From: Candidatus Delongbacteria bacterium
GTDB taxonomy: Bacteria > UBA4055
Direction of reading: 5' to 3'
NCBI GenBank assembly: GCA_016937995.1
Contig: JAFGVM010000074.1
Coordinates: 1-31,460 of the forward strand
Length of the DNA: 31,460 bases
Part shown: positions 18,305 to 27,331 of the stretch, one piece after another
Numbering within the stretch: position 1 is the stretch's first letter
Layout of the letters: each line of letters starts with the position of its first letter
Notes under the pieces: model-generated
The model's input: the letters and a program-made list of their open reading frames with translations, nothing else
Database searches by the model: none
Told to the model about the DNA's origin: nothing
Position numbers and translations under genes: made by a program

Positions 18305-19687
18305 ATGAAGAAGTTAATCGGAATGTTCCTGATGTTCTGTGTCAGTGCTTATTCTTTTGGCTCAACACTACTGTATGATACAACATCAGATAATTTCAAA
18401 ACTCCAATTTCTTTAACAGCTCTTGACCAGTCAGTTGCTCAAGTCTTAGATGCTCTTGCTGAAAGAGCTGGGGTCAATTTAGTTCAGAGTTCCGAAACAG
18501 TTGATAAGAAAGTTACACTCACTTTGAATGAAATACCCATCAAAGACGCTTTGGACCTTGTAGTAAGAGCTACAGATCTGAGCTATCAGATAATTGATAA
18601 CTCTATTATTGTTGCAACTCAAGCTAAAATTGACAGAGAGATTGGTTTAACAACATCAGTATTTGACCTGCAATATGCAGATGCAACATCTGTTAAAAAA
18701 ATGTTAGCCGACATTTCACAAAAAATACAGGTCGATGATCTGGGTAACAGAATAATTTATCAGGCCTCACCAAAAGTATCAAAAGAAATTGAAAAAGTAT
18801 TGATCAGAATTGACAGACCGCTTCAGCAGGTATTATTCAAAGCAAGGATTAAAGAAGTTGGTAACGAATCCGGTGAACGATATGGTATTGAGTGGGAAAA
18901 GATCAATAATTATTCAACCACTATCAGAGAAGGTGCATTTCAGGATTATGGTGTATGGAAATATGATGAAGCTGCAAATACTTACTCATTTGAATATGAC
19001 GAGGCAGATTGGCCTGTAAGAAATCTTTTCGGAAATTATACTGCAACTGAAGATTATAATTACTTCAGCCGTTCACCTTCATTTGCCAATGAAACAAATG
19101 CCGGATTTGCTAACCCTTGGCATAGAGTGATCGGTCAGGAATACGTTCTAAGTCTGGATTTTAAAAATAGAGATAACGATGCAACTATTCTTGCTGAACC
19201 TGAAATTGCGACTTTGAATAATAAAGAAGCTTATGTTCACATTGGAGATATTGTACCTTACACTGTAACTTCTGTAGAACAGGGAACAACAAAACAATCA
19301 GTTCAAAAAGAAGAGGTTGGTATTAAATTACGTGTTAGACCTATCATTAATGAAGAGAACGATATAACTGTTGAATTATCAACTGAAGTATCTTCAATTT
19401 TTGGATGGGTTGGTCCTAATTCAGAAATTCCTTGGGTAAAAGTTAGAAAAGCAAATACAACAGTTCGTGTCAGAGATGGACAAACTATTAGGATCGCCGG
19501 TATGTTATTAGAAGATGATACTTATACTGTTAATAAAGTTCCTTTATTGGGCGATATTCCTTTCTTGGGATATTTATTCCAGCATCAAGTAAGAACTAAG
19601 AAGATCACAAATCTGATAATCGAAGTAACTCCTTACATTATGATCGACGGAGAAATCGTAGTTGATGAAGAAGAGGAATTTGAATAG
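18305..19687 (+). CDS. pilQ: Short type IV pilus secretin, PilQ-like
   Basis: A 460-residue outer-membrane secretin. It has a signal peptide (MKKLIGMFLMFCVSAYSFG), an STN/N0 domain (about 30-110, ISLTALDQSVAQVLDALAER), an N1 domain (about 115-180, VFDLQYADATSVKKMLADI) and the secretin barrel, recognised by ILAEPEIATLNNKEAYVHIGD, the region VGIKLRVRPIINEEND, and the terminal VPLLGDIPFLGYLF. It lacks the AMIN peptidoglycan-binding domains of classical PilQ (about 700 residues), so anchoring must come from elsewhere. ATG 18305 has GGGAG eight bases upstream and starts the signal peptide cleanly; an ATG-less extension to 18263 does not. The gap to the previous gene (79 bp) is the largest inside the operon. 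Confidence 0.93.
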   Translation: MKKLIGMFLMFCVSAYSFGSTLLYDTTSDNFKTPISLTALDQSVAQVLDALAERAGVNLVQSSETVDKKVTLTLNEIPIKDALDLVVRATDLSYQIIDNSIIVATQAKIDREIGLTTSVFDLQYADATSVKKMLADISQKIQVDDLGNRIIYQASPKVSKEIEKVLIRIDRPLQQVLFKARIKEVGNESGERYGIEWEKINNYSTTIREGAFQDYGVWKYDEAANTYSFEYDEADWPVRNLFGNYTATEDYNYFSRSPSFANETNAGFANPWHRVIGQEYVLSLDFKNRDNDATILAEPEIATLNNKEAYVHIGDIVPYTVTSVEQGTTKQSVQKEEVGIKLRVRPIINEENDITVELSTEVSSIFGWVGPNSEIPWVKVRKANTTVRVRDGQTIRIAGMLLEDDTYTVNKVPLLGDIPFLGYLFQHQVRTKKITNLIIEVTPYIMIDGEIVVDEEEEFE

Positions 19688-19700
19688 ATCCAGAATAATT

Positions 19701-19733
19701 AGAAGCAGAATGAAAATTCTGCTTCTTTTTTTT
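19701..19733 (+). terminator. Intrinsic terminator overlapping the next gene's start codon
   Basis: Arms AGAAGCAGAAT (19701-19711) and ATTCTGCTTCT (19716-19726) pair perfectly over 11 bp around a GAAA tetraloop, followed by eight Ts (19726-19733). This is a textbook Rho-independent terminator 13 bp after the secretin stop. The ATG at 19710-19712 lies in the stem and loop, so folding would also hide the start of the downstream gene. Confidence 0.85.
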
Positions 19734-20579
19734 ATATCATCATTATTTTTTAATTGCGCTCACACTTCTAGTGTGAGTTTTATTTATACTGGAAAAAGTA
19801 ACGGTATTCTTGAAAATTGTAATTGTCCTAAGAATATGTACGGTGGATTATTAAATCGCCTTTATTTTTTTAAACAGAATAAAGATTCAGTAGACCTGTT
19901 CATAGATGCTGGAGATATCTTTTCCTATAGAAAAGATGAAAACATAAATAATATTATATGTGAAATATTACCGGAATTTAATTATTCTGCGATTACACCA
20001 GGAGAGCTAGATCTGGATAAAATAAGCTCCATTACCGATCTTGCAATATCACAAAATATCAGTAATTTGAAAAAGGAAATATTTCTTGATGTGAATGGTG
20101 TTAAAATATGTGTCACAGGAGCAATAGATCCATCATTTATAAAATACGATAAGAACCATAAAATAATTGAAAATGTTGATCTGAACAGCATAATAAATTA
20201 CAATAAATCATTGAAAATCAGATCTGATATTTTAATTTTTCTTTCCCATATGGAAGTTGAAAATGAAAGAATATTATTTATGGAAAGCACTGATATAGAT
20301 GTAATGGTATCGGGTCATAGCGGTATAAGAACTTATGAAACTTTTGATAACAGAGTATATGTTTCTCCCGGAAGAAATTCAGAGTATGTCGGTATACTTA
20401 AACTTATTATGAACAAGAATTCTAAAGGAATGTATAATATTGAAGAACTTAGGAACAGATTCCATTCAATGCATATTGATTCAATTCCTGAAGACATTGG
20501 TGCCAGAATGCTGGTCGACAGTATGAAAAGTATAAATAAGATAGATATGAAAACAGAGAAAGATAATGATTATGAATAA
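19710..20579 (+). CDS. UshA-like metallophosphatase-fold putative lipoprotein
   Basis: A 289-residue exported protein: signal MKILLLFFISSLFFNC with a cysteine at 16 in a poor lipobox (Asn at -1). The mature part has SNGILENCNCPKNMYGGLLNR, LFIDAGDIF, ITPGELDL, FLSHMEVEN and VSGHSG, in the order of a UshA/5'-nucleotidase-type metallophosphatase domain of the CGC...GGLxRR subgroup. Several ligand positions look altered (no DxH in motif 1, GE for GNHE, GHSG for GHxH), so it may be inactive. ATG 19710 lies within a terminator hairpin; TTG 19662 or ATG 19665, overlapping the secretin end, would add 15-16 basic residues. It overlaps the next gene by about 8 bp. Confidence 0.7.
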   Translation: MKILLLFFISSLFFNCAHTSSVSFIYTGKSNGILENCNCPKNMYGGLLNRLYFFKQNKDSVDLFIDAGDIFSYRKDENINNIICEILPEFNYSAITPGELDLDKISSITDLAISQNISNLKKEIFLDVNGVKICVTGAIDPSFIKYDKNHKIIENVDLNSIINYNKSLKIRSDILIFLSHMEVENERILFMESTDIDVMVSGHSGIRTYETFDNRVYVSPGRNSEYVGILKLIMNKNSKGMYNIEELRNRFHSMHIDSIPEDIGARMLVDSMKSINKIDMKTEKDNDYE

Positions 20580-21618
20580 AATATTATCAGTTATTCTGCT
20601 ACTGACAATGTTCTTGTCACTCAATAGTAAGATATTGACAAATATTGAAGGTGTTGGTATCGCAGACAATAAACTGGAAGCTTTGTTTCAGGCTAAAAGA
20701 GATGTATTGGAAAAAAGTTTTGGCTTGATCCTTTCTTCAAAGAGTATTGCTAAAAATAATATGATAATTAATGACAGGCTTTTAATCAAATCAGAAGGCT
20801 ATATAAAAAAGTATGATATTGTTAAAGAATCTTTTGATGAGGGAATTTATCATACCACAATTAAGGCTGAAGTCACAGATCTTTTGGACGACATACTTAA
20901 AGATGAATTTGCAAAAAAGTTCCTTATCTTAGAAATGGGTTTCCCTAAATTCGGAGTAATTATTACTACGAAAGATAGTCTAAGAGAGAACTTTGCTGAA
21001 AATATCATCATTGATAATTTTATGAGATCATATTTTGATGTTCATAAGATAAATGATGAAAATTCAGATGAGCCTGATAAAGTAGATTTTATAATTGAGG
21101 GATCTGTGGATTACTCTACCAGTAAAATAAGCTCTTATAATATTGAGAATATGTATTCAGTACATACTCAAATAGAATGTCAAATCAGAGCAGCAGGCAA
21201 CGATAAAATTATCTCATCTGAAATATTTAAAACGAAGAAAGCTCATTTTGATTCGGTCGAAGCTAAAAGACAATCAATAGCATTGTGTTCGGATATGATA
21301 TCCAAATATTTAATTGAGGATTCAATTGAGAAATGGAGTAAATATTTTAATGAAGAGACAAGAAAATTAGATATTGTAATAAAAAATATTTCTTATGAAA
21401 CTTCTGAAAGATTACTGGCGGAACTGAATTATTTATTCAGTGGTACAGAATCAGTTTGTGCCAATGATTATCATGAACGCCACAGAACAATTATTATCAA
21501 TTCATTTATGAACGGGAACGATATCCTTGAAACTATTAAAAAATTTCTGTTAAAACATGATCATAAGGTCAGAGTAGAATCAGTAAATGAAAGTTGTATA
21601 AATCTAGAACTGATCTAA
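20572..21618 (+). CDS. Exported protein with FlgT-N/LPP20-like domain
   Basis: A 348-residue protein with signal peptide MNKILSVILLLTMFLSLNSK. Residues about 22-105 (EGVGIADNKLEALFQAKRDVLEKSFG, then INDRLLIKSEGYIKKYDIVKE and YHTTIKAEV) follow the pattern of FlgT N-terminal / LPP20-like domains: alternating helix, 'S.GYI..Y.I' strand and 'Y.V.I.AEV' strand. A middle alpha/beta domain (about 120-230, FGVIITTKDSL, DFIIEGSVDY) could be a TolB-N/ABD-like domain; the C-terminus is unassigned. The start overlaps the previous gene's stop (ATGAATAA), showing coupling. Proteins of this kind often assist outer-membrane rings, so a secretin accessory role is an inference. Confidence 0.65.
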   Translation: MNKILSVILLLTMFLSLNSKILTNIEGVGIADNKLEALFQAKRDVLEKSFGLILSSKSIAKNNMIINDRLLIKSEGYIKKYDIVKESFDEGIYHTTIKAEVTDLLDDILKDEFAKKFLILEMGFPKFGVIITTKDSLRENFAENIIIDNFMRSYFDVHKINDENSDEPDKVDFIIEGSVDYSTSKISSYNIENMYSVHTQIECQIRAAGNDKIISSEIFKTKKAHFDSVEAKRQSIALCSDMISKYLIEDSIEKWSKYFNEETRKLDIVIKNISYETSERLLAELNYLFSGTESVCANDYHERHRTIIINSFMNGNDILETIKKFLLKHDHKVRVESVNESCINLELI

Positions 21619-23176: not shown

Positions 23177-23206
23177 ATAAGTTTTCTTTAGTAATAAATA
23201 ATAATG

Positions 23207-23236
23207 AAAGAGGACCGTGTCCTCTTTTATTTTTTA
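23207..23236 (+). terminator. Intrinsic terminator after gcvPB
   Basis: AAAGAGGAC (23207-23215) pairs perfectly with GTCCTCTTT (23219-23227) around a CGT loop, followed by a T-rich tract TATTTTTT. It lies upstream of ATG 23246, which argues against the in-frame ATG at 23204 as the start of the next gene. Confidence 0.8.
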
Positions 23237-23245
23237 CGGATATCA

Positions 23246-26095
23246 ATGAAAAAGTTATACAAAGAATTAAAATTAGAAAATTATGTAGTGTTTGACATTG
23301 AGACTACCGGAACGGACTGTTTTTCTGATAAAATTATTGAAATAGCCGGTGTTAAGTATAAGAACGGTGAAGTTCAGAAGATATTTAATAATCTGGTAGA
23401 TCCGGGACTGATGATCAGTGAGCAGATCACAAATTTAACCGGTATAGAAAATTCTGATCTTATCGGTAAACCGGGAATAGAAGAAATCTTACCTGATTTT
23501 TTGGATTTTATAGAGGATCTGCCGCTCGTAGCCCATAATATTGATTTTGATCTGAGTTTTATCAGATATCAGATCCAAATGACCGGAATGCCTGAACTGG
23601 CAACTGATGAATTTCATGACACATTGCTTCTGAGTCAGATATTTTATCCGATAGGTCCGGCAAATCACAAATTATCCACTCTGGCGGAATTTCTCAATAT
23701 CGATACTGAAGGTTTCCACAGAGCATTAAATGATTGTATGGCAACCGGTAAGTTGTTCGAAAAGCTGATTGAAAAGTCCGTTACACTGACAGAGAACACT
23801 GTAAAAAAAATAACCAAAGTTGCTGGTAAATCAAAATATGTGAAATATTATTTTGTGAATTTGGCAAATTATTATTTGAAATCAGCGTTCGATAGAAAGA
23901 TCAGTAAGAAAGAGAAACGAGTTTCTATACCTAATATTCTTGAAAGATCTAATGAATTAGATTATGATGACCTGAGAAAATTGCAGGAGAATGATATTGC
24001 TGAAAAGGTATTTGCTGAAGGCGGATTATTAAGTAAGATCATACCGAATTATGAATACCGCGAGGAACAATATTTGCTTTCAAAGAAATGCGATGAAGTA
24101 TATACCACTGATAAGTTCCTTGTATCTGAGGCAGGTACCGGTATCGGAAAATCTTTTGCATATCTGGTCCCGTCAATAGTCCATTCTCTGATGAATGATT
24201 CGAAAGTCGTAATATCAACAAATACAAAGAATCTTCAGGAGCAGATTTTTTTTAAAGACCTTCCGGTACTTCACGAAATGTTCAATGAATCTTTTAAAGC
24301 GATCCTGCTGAAGGGCAGAAATAACTATTTGTGTATGAAAAGATTTGAAAATATCTGTCAGCATCCACTGGATAATCTTTCAGAAATAGAAATAATTCAA
24401 TTTCTTCCACTTATTTACTGGGCTGAAATTACAAGTACTGGAGATATTGAGGAAAACAGCGGATTCAAGATCGGTTTTGCCAGAAGTGCATGGAGTAAAA
24501 CTGTTTCAGACAAGGGTTACTGTTCAGGTAAAAAGTGTAAATATAATAAGCAGTGTTTTTTGCAGAATGTGAGGAAGAATTCATTTAAATCGAATCTGGT
24601 TATCGTTAATCATTCACTGCTATTTTCAGATCTGGCATCAGGAAATGCAGTTCTGGGGAACTTTGAAAATCTTGTAATGGATGAAGCTCATAATATAGAA
24701 GCAGCTGCAACAAAATATTTAGGTGTGGAATACAGTCTTTATCAGTTAAAAGGTTTAATTTATAAAATTTATAATTCGAGACAAAAAAATAATTTTTGCA
24801 AAAAGATAGAGAACTATTCTGATAAATTCCAGATCGATAAAGACGGTATATTAGAGCTTTCGGAGAGAATAAAGGATAAAGTTGACAGCTTTTATGAAAA
24901 AGGTATTGAGCTGTTCGAACTTGCTGCAGAACAATTAAATAAGAGATTAAATGATTCGAACAGGTTTAGAGGAGTTGTAAAGAACAGATACAAAGATACT
25001 TCTGAAATATTTAACGATATTGTTGATATACAGATATTCAAAAAATTGAACGAGGAGTTGATAGGTCTTATAAAAAGAGTTAGTATTGCCCTGAAACAGG
25101 AATCAGAAAAAAATATAGACCATGAAGAATTATTCCTTGAAAGTCAGTCAATTCTTGAGCAGGCACAATCAAGTTATGATTCTTTTTTATTCCTTACACA
25201 GGCCCAGAGAGAAAATGATGTATTCTGGTATGAGCTTACTCAAAAAGATTCAAATATGTATTTATCATTATTCAGTGCTCCTTTAAATGTTTCAAAGATA
25301 CTTCATGATAACCTGTACAGTGTAATGAAAAGTATTATTTTTACAAGTGCCACACTTACTATAGAAAATAGATTCAAGTATATGATCAGAAAATTAGGTC
25401 TGGACCTGATAGACGAAAATAAAATTGAAACTTTAATGCTCGGATCGCCTTTTGACCTTGAAAATCAATTGAAGATCGTGATACCATCCTATTTTGCTAT
25501 TCCGAGGAACAGTATTGTTTTCGATAATGATATAACAGAATTTCTAAGCCATCTGGCTTCAGAAAACGATGATGGTACTCTTGCATTGTTTACGAGTTAT
25601 AAACAAATGCGGGACATTGCAGGAAAGATCAGAGAAATATTTGTGAATAAAAAAAGACTTTTCGCAGTTCAAGGTTCTGACGGGAACAGATCAGAACTGA
25701 TAAAGCAGTTTAAGAGTGTAACGAATTCATTTCTTTTTGGAACTGACAGTTTCTGGGAGGGAATAGATGTGCCCGGTGATGCATTACACACACTTATTAT
25801 AATTAAGTTACCGTTTGCTGTTCCAAGTGAACCTGTTATACAGGCCAGGATAGAAGAGATCGAAAAGAAGGGTAATGATGCCTTCATGTTCTATTCAGTT
25901 CCTGAAGCTATCCTTAAGTTAAAGCAGGGGGTAGGCAGATTGATAAGGCATAATTCAGATCAGGGAATAGTATATATTTGTGACAGCAGATTAAGTAATA
26001 CACGATGGGGAAAAGCGTTCGTTAACTCTTTGCCGGTAGAACCGGTCATTGCTGATTCTTTAAGTGTCCTCAAGAGCATATCAAAAAAATATTAA
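23246..26095 (+). CDS. dinG: DEDDh exonuclease-DinG helicase fusion
   Basis: A 949-residue protein joining a PolC/epsilon-type 3'-5' exonuclease to an XPD/DinG superfamily 2 helicase, as in Gram-positive DinG. The exonuclease (about 1-175) has VVFDIETTG, AHNIDFDLSF and FHRALNDCMATG, giving D, E, D and the DEDDh His/Asp. The helicase has SEAGTGIGKSFAYLVPS (Walker A, about 293-309), VMDEAHNIE (about 477), SATLTIENRF, GTDSFWEGIDVPGDAL and KQGVGRLIRH. Four cysteines between about 362 and 436 (YLCMKR, YCSGKKCKYNKQCF) would bind an iron-sulfur cluster. All catalytic residues look intact in both halves. The start is set by the terminator just upstream; the GGAT ribosome site is weak. Confidence 0.92.
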   Translation: MKKLYKELKLENYVVFDIETTGTDCFSDKIIEIAGVKYKNGEVQKIFNNLVDPGLMISEQITNLTGIENSDLIGKPGIEEILPDFLDFIEDLPLVAHNIDFDLSFIRYQIQMTGMPELATDEFHDTLLLSQIFYPIGPANHKLSTLAEFLNIDTEGFHRALNDCMATGKLFEKLIEKSVTLTENTVKKITKVAGKSKYVKYYFVNLANYYLKSAFDRKISKKEKRVSIPNILERSNELDYDDLRKLQENDIAEKVFAEGGLLSKIIPNYEYREEQYLLSKKCDEVYTTDKFLVSEAGTGIGKSFAYLVPSIVHSLMNDSKVVISTNTKNLQEQIFFKDLPVLHEMFNESFKAILLKGRNNYLCMKRFENICQHPLDNLSEIEIIQFLPLIYWAEITSTGDIEENSGFKIGFARSAWSKTVSDKGYCSGKKCKYNKQCFLQNVRKNSFKSNLVIVNHSLLFSDLASGNAVLGNFENLVMDEAHNIEAAATKYLGVEYSLYQLKGLIYKIYNSRQKNNFCKKIENYSDKFQIDKDGILELSERIKDKVDSFYEKGIELFELAAEQLNKRLNDSNRFRGVVKNRYKDTSEIFNDIVDIQIFKKLNEELIGLIKRVSIALKQESEKNIDHEELFLESQSILEQAQSSYDSFLFLTQAQRENDVFWYELTQKDSNMYLSLFSAPLNVSKILHDNLYSVMKSIIFTSATLTIENRFKYMIRKLGLDLIDENKIETLMLGSPFDLENQLKIVIPSYFAIPRNSIVFDNDITEFLSHLASENDDGTLALFTSYKQMRDIAGKIREIFVNKKRLFAVQGSDGNRSELIKQFKSVTNSFLFGTDSFWEGIDVPGDALHTLIIIKLPFAVPSEPVIQARIEEIEKKGNDAFMFYSVPEAILKLKQGVGRLIRHNSDQGIVYICDSRLSNTRWGKAFVNSLPVEPVIADSLSVLKSISKKY

Positions 26096-26179: not shown

Positions 26180-27289
26180 ATGTTTCAGTATCTATCTTAT
26201 TTATCAGTGGATCATAAATTCTTATCTTTTTTAAGATTATTCGATTCCATAATGTTCAGATCGATGGCGGCAATGATAACAGCGCTATTATTTTCACTGA
26301 TAGTAGGAAATAAGATCATTATATTGCTATATAAGAAAGGAATGAGAGATATTGTCAGAGATTACGGTAATATAGGCGTAAGTGATAAGAACGGTACTCC
26401 TGTGATGGGTGGATTGATAATAATTTCATCACTTGTATTTTCTATTTTGCTCTGGTCAAATCTTCGTTCAACTTTTGTTCTTTTATCCCTGTCCGCGATT
26501 CTCTGGTACGGATATATAGGGGCACTTGACGATATTAAGAAAGTTAAGTACCGTAACAGTGATAAAGGAATGAAGCAGCTTACAAAGATAATTCTGCAGG
26601 GTATTTTCGCGTTGGTAATCGCTTTGATATTCTATTTAAAAGAAACGACCCCGTTCCCTGACGGGCTTGTTTCAAATATGACAATTCCATTTATAAAAGG
26701 AAATTTCTTCATAGATCTTGGATGGTTCTATATTCCATTTGCCACATTTACAATGCTTGCTATTTCCAATGCTGTTAATTTTGCAGACGGACTGGATGGA
26801 CTTGTTATTGTTCCGTCAATAGTGACAGGAATAGTGTATGGTGTGTTCGCATACATAATCGGGAATATTAAATTTTCGGAATATTTATTGTTTAACTATA
26901 CTCCGGGAACAGGTGAATTAACCATTATAATGTCAGCTTTATTCGGAGCGGGTCTGGGATTTTTATGGTATAATTGTTATCCTGCAACTGTATTCATGGG
27001 AGATACCGGTTCAATGGCGATCGGAGGGCTGTTAGGAGTTACGGTTCTGGCGACAAAGCAGGAATTGATATTCCTTATTGCAGGAGGTATTTTTGTAGCC
27101 GAAGCAGCGTCTGTATTGATCCAGGAGAAGATAGGGATCAACTGGCTGGGGAAAAGAATATTCTTTAGAGCACCACTTCATCATACTTTCCAGTTCAGAG
27201 GTATTTCAGAGACAAAAATAGTTCAGCGTTTCTGGATAGTAAGTATTATTCTGGCAATGATAAGTTTGATATCGATAAAAGTAAGATAA
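26180..27289 (+). CDS. mraY: Phospho-N-acetylmuramoyl-pentapeptide transferase
   Basis: MraY transfers phospho-MurNAc-pentapeptide to undecaprenyl phosphate, making lipid I at the inner membrane. The 369-residue polytopic protein shows GTPVMGGLIIISSLV, the DD-containing GALDDIKKVKYRNSDKGM (about residues 114-131), NAVNFADGLDGL (about 197) and VFMGDTGSMAIGGLLG (about 272), plus the cytoplasmic histidine cluster APLHHTFQFRG (about 333-343). Length and motifs are full. Unusually it stands alone, with promoter and terminator, rather than in a dcw cluster with murF, murD and ftsW. AGGT lies six bases before the ATG. Confidence 0.97.
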   Translation: MFQYLSYLSVDHKFLSFLRLFDSIMFRSMAAMITALLFSLIVGNKIIILLYKKGMRDIVRDYGNIGVSDKNGTPVMGGLIIISSLVFSILLWSNLRSTFVLLSLSAILWYGYIGALDDIKKVKYRNSDKGMKQLTKIILQGIFALVIALIFYLKETTPFPDGLVSNMTIPFIKGNFFIDLGWFYIPFATFTMLAISNAVNFADGLDGLVIVPSIVTGIVYGVFAYIIGNIKFSEYLLFNYTPGTGELTIIMSALFGAGLGFLWYNCYPATVFMGDTGSMAIGGLLGVTVLATKQELIFLIAGGIFVAEAASVLIQEKIGINWLGKRIFFRAPLHHTFQFRGISETKIVQRFWIVSIILAMISLISIKVR

Positions 27290-27315
27290 AAAAAGCGGGA
27301 TTACCCGCTTTTTTT
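27288..27315. terminator. Bidirectional terminator between mraY and buk
   Basis: AAAAGCGGG and CCCGCTTTT pair around ATTA, with A and T runs on both sides, directly after the mraY stop. On the minus strand it lies 17 bp after the buk stop, so it can serve both convergent transcripts. Confidence 0.85.
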
Positions 27316-27331
27316 AAGAACTAAAATTATT

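Follow-up and report, generated by a model that had tools for sequence, protein, structure and literature searches.

A conserved terminator-like hairpin within the signal-peptide codons of the gene that follows pilQ in Delongbacteria

Results

Gene content and hairpins downstream of pilQ

The window, by which we mean the whole 31,460-nt stretch of DNA analyzed here, comes from a Candidatus Delongbacteria genome of 2.75 Mb in 99 contigs and carries a pilM-N-O-P-Q gene series, in which PilM was named by Pfam and N, O, and P by position. The final gene of this series, the secretin gene pilQ (18305–19687, forward strand), matches Pfam Secretin (E 6.6e-42), STN, and Secretin_N; its start at 18305 is predicted from a signal peptide, and its TAG stop codon lies at 19685–19687. 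Gene 2 (19665–20579, forward strand) appears to encode an UshA-like phosphoesterase lipoprotein, given its matches to NCBIfam NF041198 and Pfam Metallophos, and its frame is also open in relatives. The ORF as listed spans 19662–20579 and contains both of the hairpins described below.

Hairpin 1, which was also found by a pattern scan, begins 13 nt past the pilQ stop (spacer 19688–19700, forward strand) and reads AGAAGCAGAAT-GAAA-ATTCTGCTTCT at 19701–19726 on the forward strand. Its 11-bp stem is formed by the 5′ arm (19701–19711) and the 3′ arm (19716–19726) around the GAAA loop (19712–19715), with eight T residues at 19726–19733 and a 10-bp core of −13.3 kcal/mol. The whole structure is coding sequence: it encodes RSRMKILLL, the n-region and the start of the h-region of the gene 2 signal peptide, with the 5′ arm giving the basic Arg-Ser-Arg and the 3′ arm and T-tract (CTG CTT CTT TTT TTT) giving the Leu-Leu-Leu-Phe-Phe of the hydrophobic core. 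In the window species, an ATG at 19710–19712 sits in the stem and loop. An earlier, sequence-only reading of this DNA had described an 11-bp stem, GAAA loop, and T8 tract 13 bp after pilQ, with ATG 19710 inside the stem-loop and the T-tract coding for the signal peptide, and each element of that description is accurate. A second terminator-like structure, hairpin 2, occupies the codons right after the lipobox Cys of gene 2; it consists of a 9-bp stem, GCTCACACT-TCT-AGTGTGAGT, followed by TTTATTTAT (19758–19778, forward strand; terminator score 7.8).

Hairpin 1 is strong by the standard of its own genome, and it is exceptional in lying within a gene of substantial length. We scored terminator-like sites from their U-tract and their stem energy per length, with a formula after d'Aubenton Carafa, in 339 kb of the window genome (20 stretches plus the window) in which ORFs were called by a simple longest-ORF rule. 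With a score of 37.0, hairpin 1 ranks 10th among the 105 terminator-like sites in this sample, which bears out the previous assignment of a strong intrinsic-terminator structure. Scores of at least 20 were reached by 26 sites, 19 of which lie within 60 nt past a stop codon, where genuine terminators would be expected, so that intrinsic terminators of such anatomy are in use in this organism; only two of the 26 are contained in a same-strand ORF, namely hairpin 1 and one site in an ORF of ~90 codons. Hairpin 1 combines the features of an intrinsic terminator, a stable G-C hairpin with a short loop and a directly adjoining U-tract, in a structure that is under selection (see below). No Rfam leader, riboswitch, or attenuator family matched in the window at gathering thresholds. 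A repeat or mobile element was rejected as its source, as the exact stem motif, where found, is confined to the pilQ–gene 2 junction, and another hairpin at an ORF start (L106) was dismissed as a parallel, being a weak hairpin in zinc-finger-like Cys codons.

Two other sites in the window were noted in passing. The listed ORF at 23204–26095 (a DinG-like helicase with an exonuclease domain, named from sequence) begins in a terminator-like hairpin at 23205–23229, after gcvPB; its real start is probably a downstream ATG (MKKLYKEL), so ORF calling alone can also put a start codon in a terminator. Between the convergent genes ending at 27289 and 27332 there is a bidirectional terminator, A7-GCGGG...CCCGC-T7, at 27287–27316.

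Conservation of hairpin 1 across the phylum

Loci in relatives were found with the pilQ C-terminus as query against the contigs of a phylum sample of 13 genomes, seemingly all MAGs, and 13 pilQ–gene 2 loci were compared: the window (L001), L004, L026, L006–L011, L002, L054, L013, and L019. The hairpin 1 stem is spread across the phylum, lying right after pilQ in 11 of the 13 loci, that is, in the window and ten others (L004, L026, L006, L007, L008, L009, L010, L011, L002, and L054) from six genera, with a spacer between the pilQ stop and the stem of 13, 19, 22, 26, 28, or 34 nt. The locus of a seventh genus (L013, genome G007) lacks this stem but has, slightly deeper in gene 2, a 15-bp hairpin that is unrelated to it and ends in a T6 tail (terminator score 29.3), while no strong hairpin was found after pilQ at L019 (genome G004). 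In genome G010 the match to pilQ breaks off after 222 residues, with no gene 2 detected next to it. At two outgroup loci from Cloacimonadota (L065, L066), a different gene follows the secretin and no such hairpin is present there.

The U-tract is more variable than the stem. T7–T8 stands directly 3′ of the stem in L001, L004, L026, L006, and L009, and the tails of L007 and L054 are T-rich, with weaker U-tracts in L007, L008, L010, L011, and L002. The tract has degenerated to TTTCATTTATC in the genus of L010, L011, and L002, and L007 has an A-U-rich stem; terminator scores there are about −2 and −21, respectively, yet the stem persists at all four loci. Across the span from pilM to gcvPB in six relatives with longer loci, the hairpin is the sole or top terminator-like site, but it is weak in L062.

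One of these loci, L002 (G000:C38:1-2434), is a second pilQ–gene 2 pair in the window's own assembly; its DNA shares 85% identity with L011, a locus of genus 4, and only about 72% with the window's own pair. Contamination of the assembly or a second gene copy may explain it.

Selection on the stem

Nine distinct sequences share a 12-bp stem, over which 97.2% of cells are paired, vs 94.0% in shuffles, and sliding the partner strand destroys this pairing. Both sides have changed in four of the 12 pairs: two A-U/G-C exchanges lie in the outer stem, and two G-C/A-U exchanges lie at column 5 and at the topmost pair that the stems share. None of 500 shuffles equalled the covariation score of 0.280, although the count behind it is small and kinship of the sequences can inflate it. 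Conservation of the stem in relatives, whose absence the sequence-only reading had named as a refutation, is thus observed, with compensatory changes.

Given the small count and possible inflation by kinship, we used a second, independent test, in which the 38 codons after the pilQ stop were redrawn 1000 times with amino acids fixed and with the locus's own codon usage. This addresses the idea that the hairpin arose by chance from its coding content, the basic n-region supplying a purine arm and the Leu/Phe codons behind it a pyrimidine arm and a T-tract; purine-rich Arg/Lys codons and pyrimidine-rich Leu/Phe codons do favor complementarity. In the window, however, an equally long stem arose in 0.6% of redraws and an equal terminator score in none of the 1000. 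At each of the 12 loci, 0–0.9% of redraws (P ≤ 0.009) reached the real stem length; redraws with the real terminator score made up 0–0.4%, but 2.5% at L007. As shuffles almost never rebuild the stem, it is under selection rather than a by-product of coding; we ruled out coding coincidence on this ground, the compensatory changes in the stem also speak against it, and we regard it as scarcely credible.

Within the window's genus the two hairpins are held still at synonymous sites. When codons with identical amino acids are compared between the window and L004, none of 16 differs synonymously under the two hairpins, vs 66 of 162 elsewhere (Fisher P 4e-4). Hairpin 2, which is kept within this genus, shows zero synonymous changes in this comparison, and in the synonymous shuffle it gave P 0.001–0.002 in each of the genus's three genomes. 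Gene 2 itself is under purifying selection, with dN of 0.25 and dS of 1.0 between the window and L004.

Start and reading frame of gene 2

The gene 2 frame is open from inside pilQ and through the stem in all 13 loci, with zero stops over the 75 nt past the pilQ stop, while the other two frames are nearly always stopped. Although the spacer varies, the first base of the stem is a first codon position in 11 of 11 stem-bearing loci. ATG 19710, by comparison, is ACG in L004 and TTT in L026, the two other genomes of the genus, and is missing in other genera; L004, L026, L006, L008, and L054 have no ATG, GTG, or TTG start within the stem at all, so translation there must begin upstream. In-frame starts in or at the end of pilQ include ATG 19665 in the window and its genus and an MKTR start in L006 and L008; elsewhere we find MSF in L010, L011, and L002, TAATG in L007, and no ATG in L009. 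Taken together, the open frame from pilQ, the constant register, and the lack of conservation of ATG 19710 place the hairpin within the signal-peptide codons of a gene that starts upstream of it, probably at ATG 19665, with TTG 19662 or TTG 19680 as possible starts. TTG 19662 and ATG 19665 had been named before as starts at which ribosomes might disrupt the hairpin, and the comparison with relatives, whose open frame begins upstream, makes them better candidates than ATG 19710.

The start codon inside the stem appears to be an accident of the window species. It had been proposed that the hairpin conceals this start, blocking initiation until opened, and here ATG 19710 does lie in stem and loop and is the first start immediately ahead of the hydrophobic stretch. 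Most relatives, however, lack a start codon at the corresponding stem position, and the upstream in-frame extension is open in all loci, with starts in or at the end of pilQ; we rejected masking because ATG 19710 is not conserved, and consider it very unlikely. A programmed frameshift joining PilQ to gene 2 was likewise set aside, as the downstream protein would start with a signal peptide.

Identity of gene 2 and gene 3

Gene 2 matches Pfam Metallophos (E 2e-4) and the NCBIfam family NF041198, UshA-like (seleno)protein (E 3.5e-14), the latter at 52 bits against a cut-off of 275, which makes it a distant relative of that family rather than a filed member. Its alignment also matches PDB 3ivd, a nucleotidase (E 1.5e-11), and a search of viral contigs with the lipoprotein alignment gave no matches. 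The stem-bearing loci have a lipobox-like Cys after the hydrophobic stretch, whereas L013 has none. Adjacency of gene 2 to pilQ is conserved. The same cannot be said of gene 3 (20566–21618), which is missing at the syntenic place in L055, L056, L058, L059, L062, and L063, where gcvPB directly follows gene 2; in the window, gene 3 has a weak match to the lipoprotein LipL46 (E 0.0018), far below the cut-off. Genes 2 and 3 had been taken for an accessory pair of the secretin, with the hairpin setting the stoichiometry between them and PilQ. The absence of gene 3 from the six relatives examined means that this pair is not a conserved unit, and a partnership with the secretin finds no support in gene 2 either: Pfam and NCBIfam searches returned only its Metallophos and UshA-like matches, and no pilotin or TPR domain.

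Several relatives of gene 2 (L003, L013, L015, L019, L027–L031, and, from another phylum, L018) contain one in-frame TGA, at the second Cys of a C-x-C motif (C-G-U-P), with a hairpin about 12–15 nt downstream. SelB is found over its cut-off in 11 of the 13 genomes and tRNA-Sec in 10 of the 13. Given the TGA, the hairpin, and the presence of this machinery, these relatives are probably selenoproteins related to the NF041198 family; in genomes G007 and G004 the pilQ-adjacent gene is itself the Sec form.

Discussion

In our view the best reading of these data, to which we give a probability of roughly two in three, is that hairpin 1 acts as a partial, ribosome-sensitive intra-operon terminator after pilQ that limits the downstream UshA-like lipoprotein. 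Its anatomy, together with published work in Escherichia coli, makes it very likely that hairpin 1 terminates transcription: in that host, terminators are efficient when placed in an ORF's first 100 bp (PMC4824070). Because the frame of gene 2 starts upstream of the hairpin, every gene 2 mRNA would run through it, whatever the promoter, and each passing RNA polymerase would probably either stop there or proceed to gene 2. Most pilM-Q transcripts would end just past pilQ, giving messages that are fine for PilQ and stop-less for gene 2, while polymerases that pass the hairpin would make the lipoprotein mRNA, with downstream output below that of the secretin.

Ribosomes may gate this decision. 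Readthrough would rise if a ribosome, either completing pilQ or initiating on gene 2, trails the polymerase closely and covers the 5′ arm, and the effect of a close pilQ ribosome would be strongest where the spacer is 13 nt, as in the window's genus. A terminator that lies only a few bases past a stop codon in E. coli is largely repressed by the finishing ribosome, and full strength returns beyond about 30 nt (PMC4824070). Gating is the weakest step of this reading, since the spacer is not conserved (13–34 nt), and it is weakened further by the finding that a translating ORF begun 30 bp before a terminator lowered efficiency only about 10% in E. coli (PMC4824070). The purpose of hairpin 1, we infer, may be to set expression ratios. 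Possible, if somewhat unlikely, is the further step that one sequence sets both how often gene 2 is transcribed and where its protein goes, with readthrough tied to translation of the signal peptide or of pilQ.

The main rival, a serious contender that we nonetheless place somewhat short of probable, is a plain, leaky end-of-operon terminator that insulates pilM-Q and leaves gene 2 to live on readthrough, its embedding in the signal peptide being a tolerated accident. The position and strength of hairpin 1 resemble those of other end-of-gene terminators of the genome, spacer lengths vary, and early-ORF translation hardly affects a terminator in E. coli (PMC4824070). Even so, gene 2 mRNA must cross the hairpin, so that gene 2 would be controlled whether or not it is regulated, and the retention of the structure inside a conserved gene across genera, along with the unrelated hairpin in G007, suggests a benefit in restraining gene 2. 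A role apart from termination, as an RNase-processing or 3′-end-stabilizing hairpin or as a ribosome brake during signal-peptide synthesis, also fits a stem that is kept despite a decayed U-tract (L010, L011, and L002) or A-U richness (L007). Hairpins within polycistronic mRNAs can set the stability of individual segments. Against this stand the T7–T8 tracts after the stem in five loci, the T-rich tails in L007 and L054, the tandem hairpin 2 with its T-rich tail in the window's genus, and the unrelated T6 hairpin in G007, and we judge a non-termination role unlikely. Partial termination, with ribosomes as a possible modulator, remains the reading we prefer.

Leader-peptide attenuators are classic, and a selected strong terminator in the signal-peptide codons of a full gene, kept across several genera, is unusual; in the part of the open-access literature that we covered, we found no described case of a terminator overlapping the signal-peptide codons of a downstream gene. 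In the frdD-ampC attenuator of E. coli, one terminator both ends the upstream operon and attenuates the gene that follows, and a role for ribosomes has been proposed; hairpin 1 would likewise control a following gene through the terminator of an upstream operon. The ampC attenuator differs in being situated in an untranslated leader, and ampC is served by a promoter of its own inside frdD. The pyrBI attenuator of E. coli is closer in that an intrinsic terminator lies within a translated ORF, pyrL, of about 135 bp, where ribosomes near the polymerase can prevent folding (PMC4824070). Hairpin 1 is likewise inside an ORF, which is open through the stem region in 13 of 13 loci and presumably translated there; pyrL, however, is a short, UTP-responsive leader peptide at the start of its operon, whereas the ORF here is a complete, conserved mid-operon gene of about 300 codons. 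A nearly identical geometry, a gene, a short gap, and a second ORF with a terminator in its early codons, exists in the synthetic construct W48, in which the lambda tR2 terminator placed 30 bp into the second ORF terminated well and lost about 10% to translation, although W48 is artificial, was not under selection, and has a short frame rather than a functional gene as its second ORF (PMC4824070). Finally, intra-operonic terminators mapped in Methanococcus maripaludis lower expression of downstream genes by partial termination between adjacent genes, as proposed here; those terminators are intergenic, whereas hairpin 1 lies inside the downstream coding sequence and encodes a signal peptide (PMC10450193).

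In conclusion, the hairpin after pilQ in Delongbacteria suggests that the base composition of a terminator suits that of signal-peptide codons. A purine-rich 5′ arm naturally specifies basic residues, and the remainder of such a terminator hydrophobic ones, so that such overlaps could recur at the ends of operons, and gene or terminator finders that forbid overlap may miss such cases. The arrangement also suggests that expression ratios can be set in mid-operon without intergenic space, and if readthrough does depend on translation of the signal peptide or of pilQ, lipoprotein output would be tied to secretin synthesis in these bacteria.
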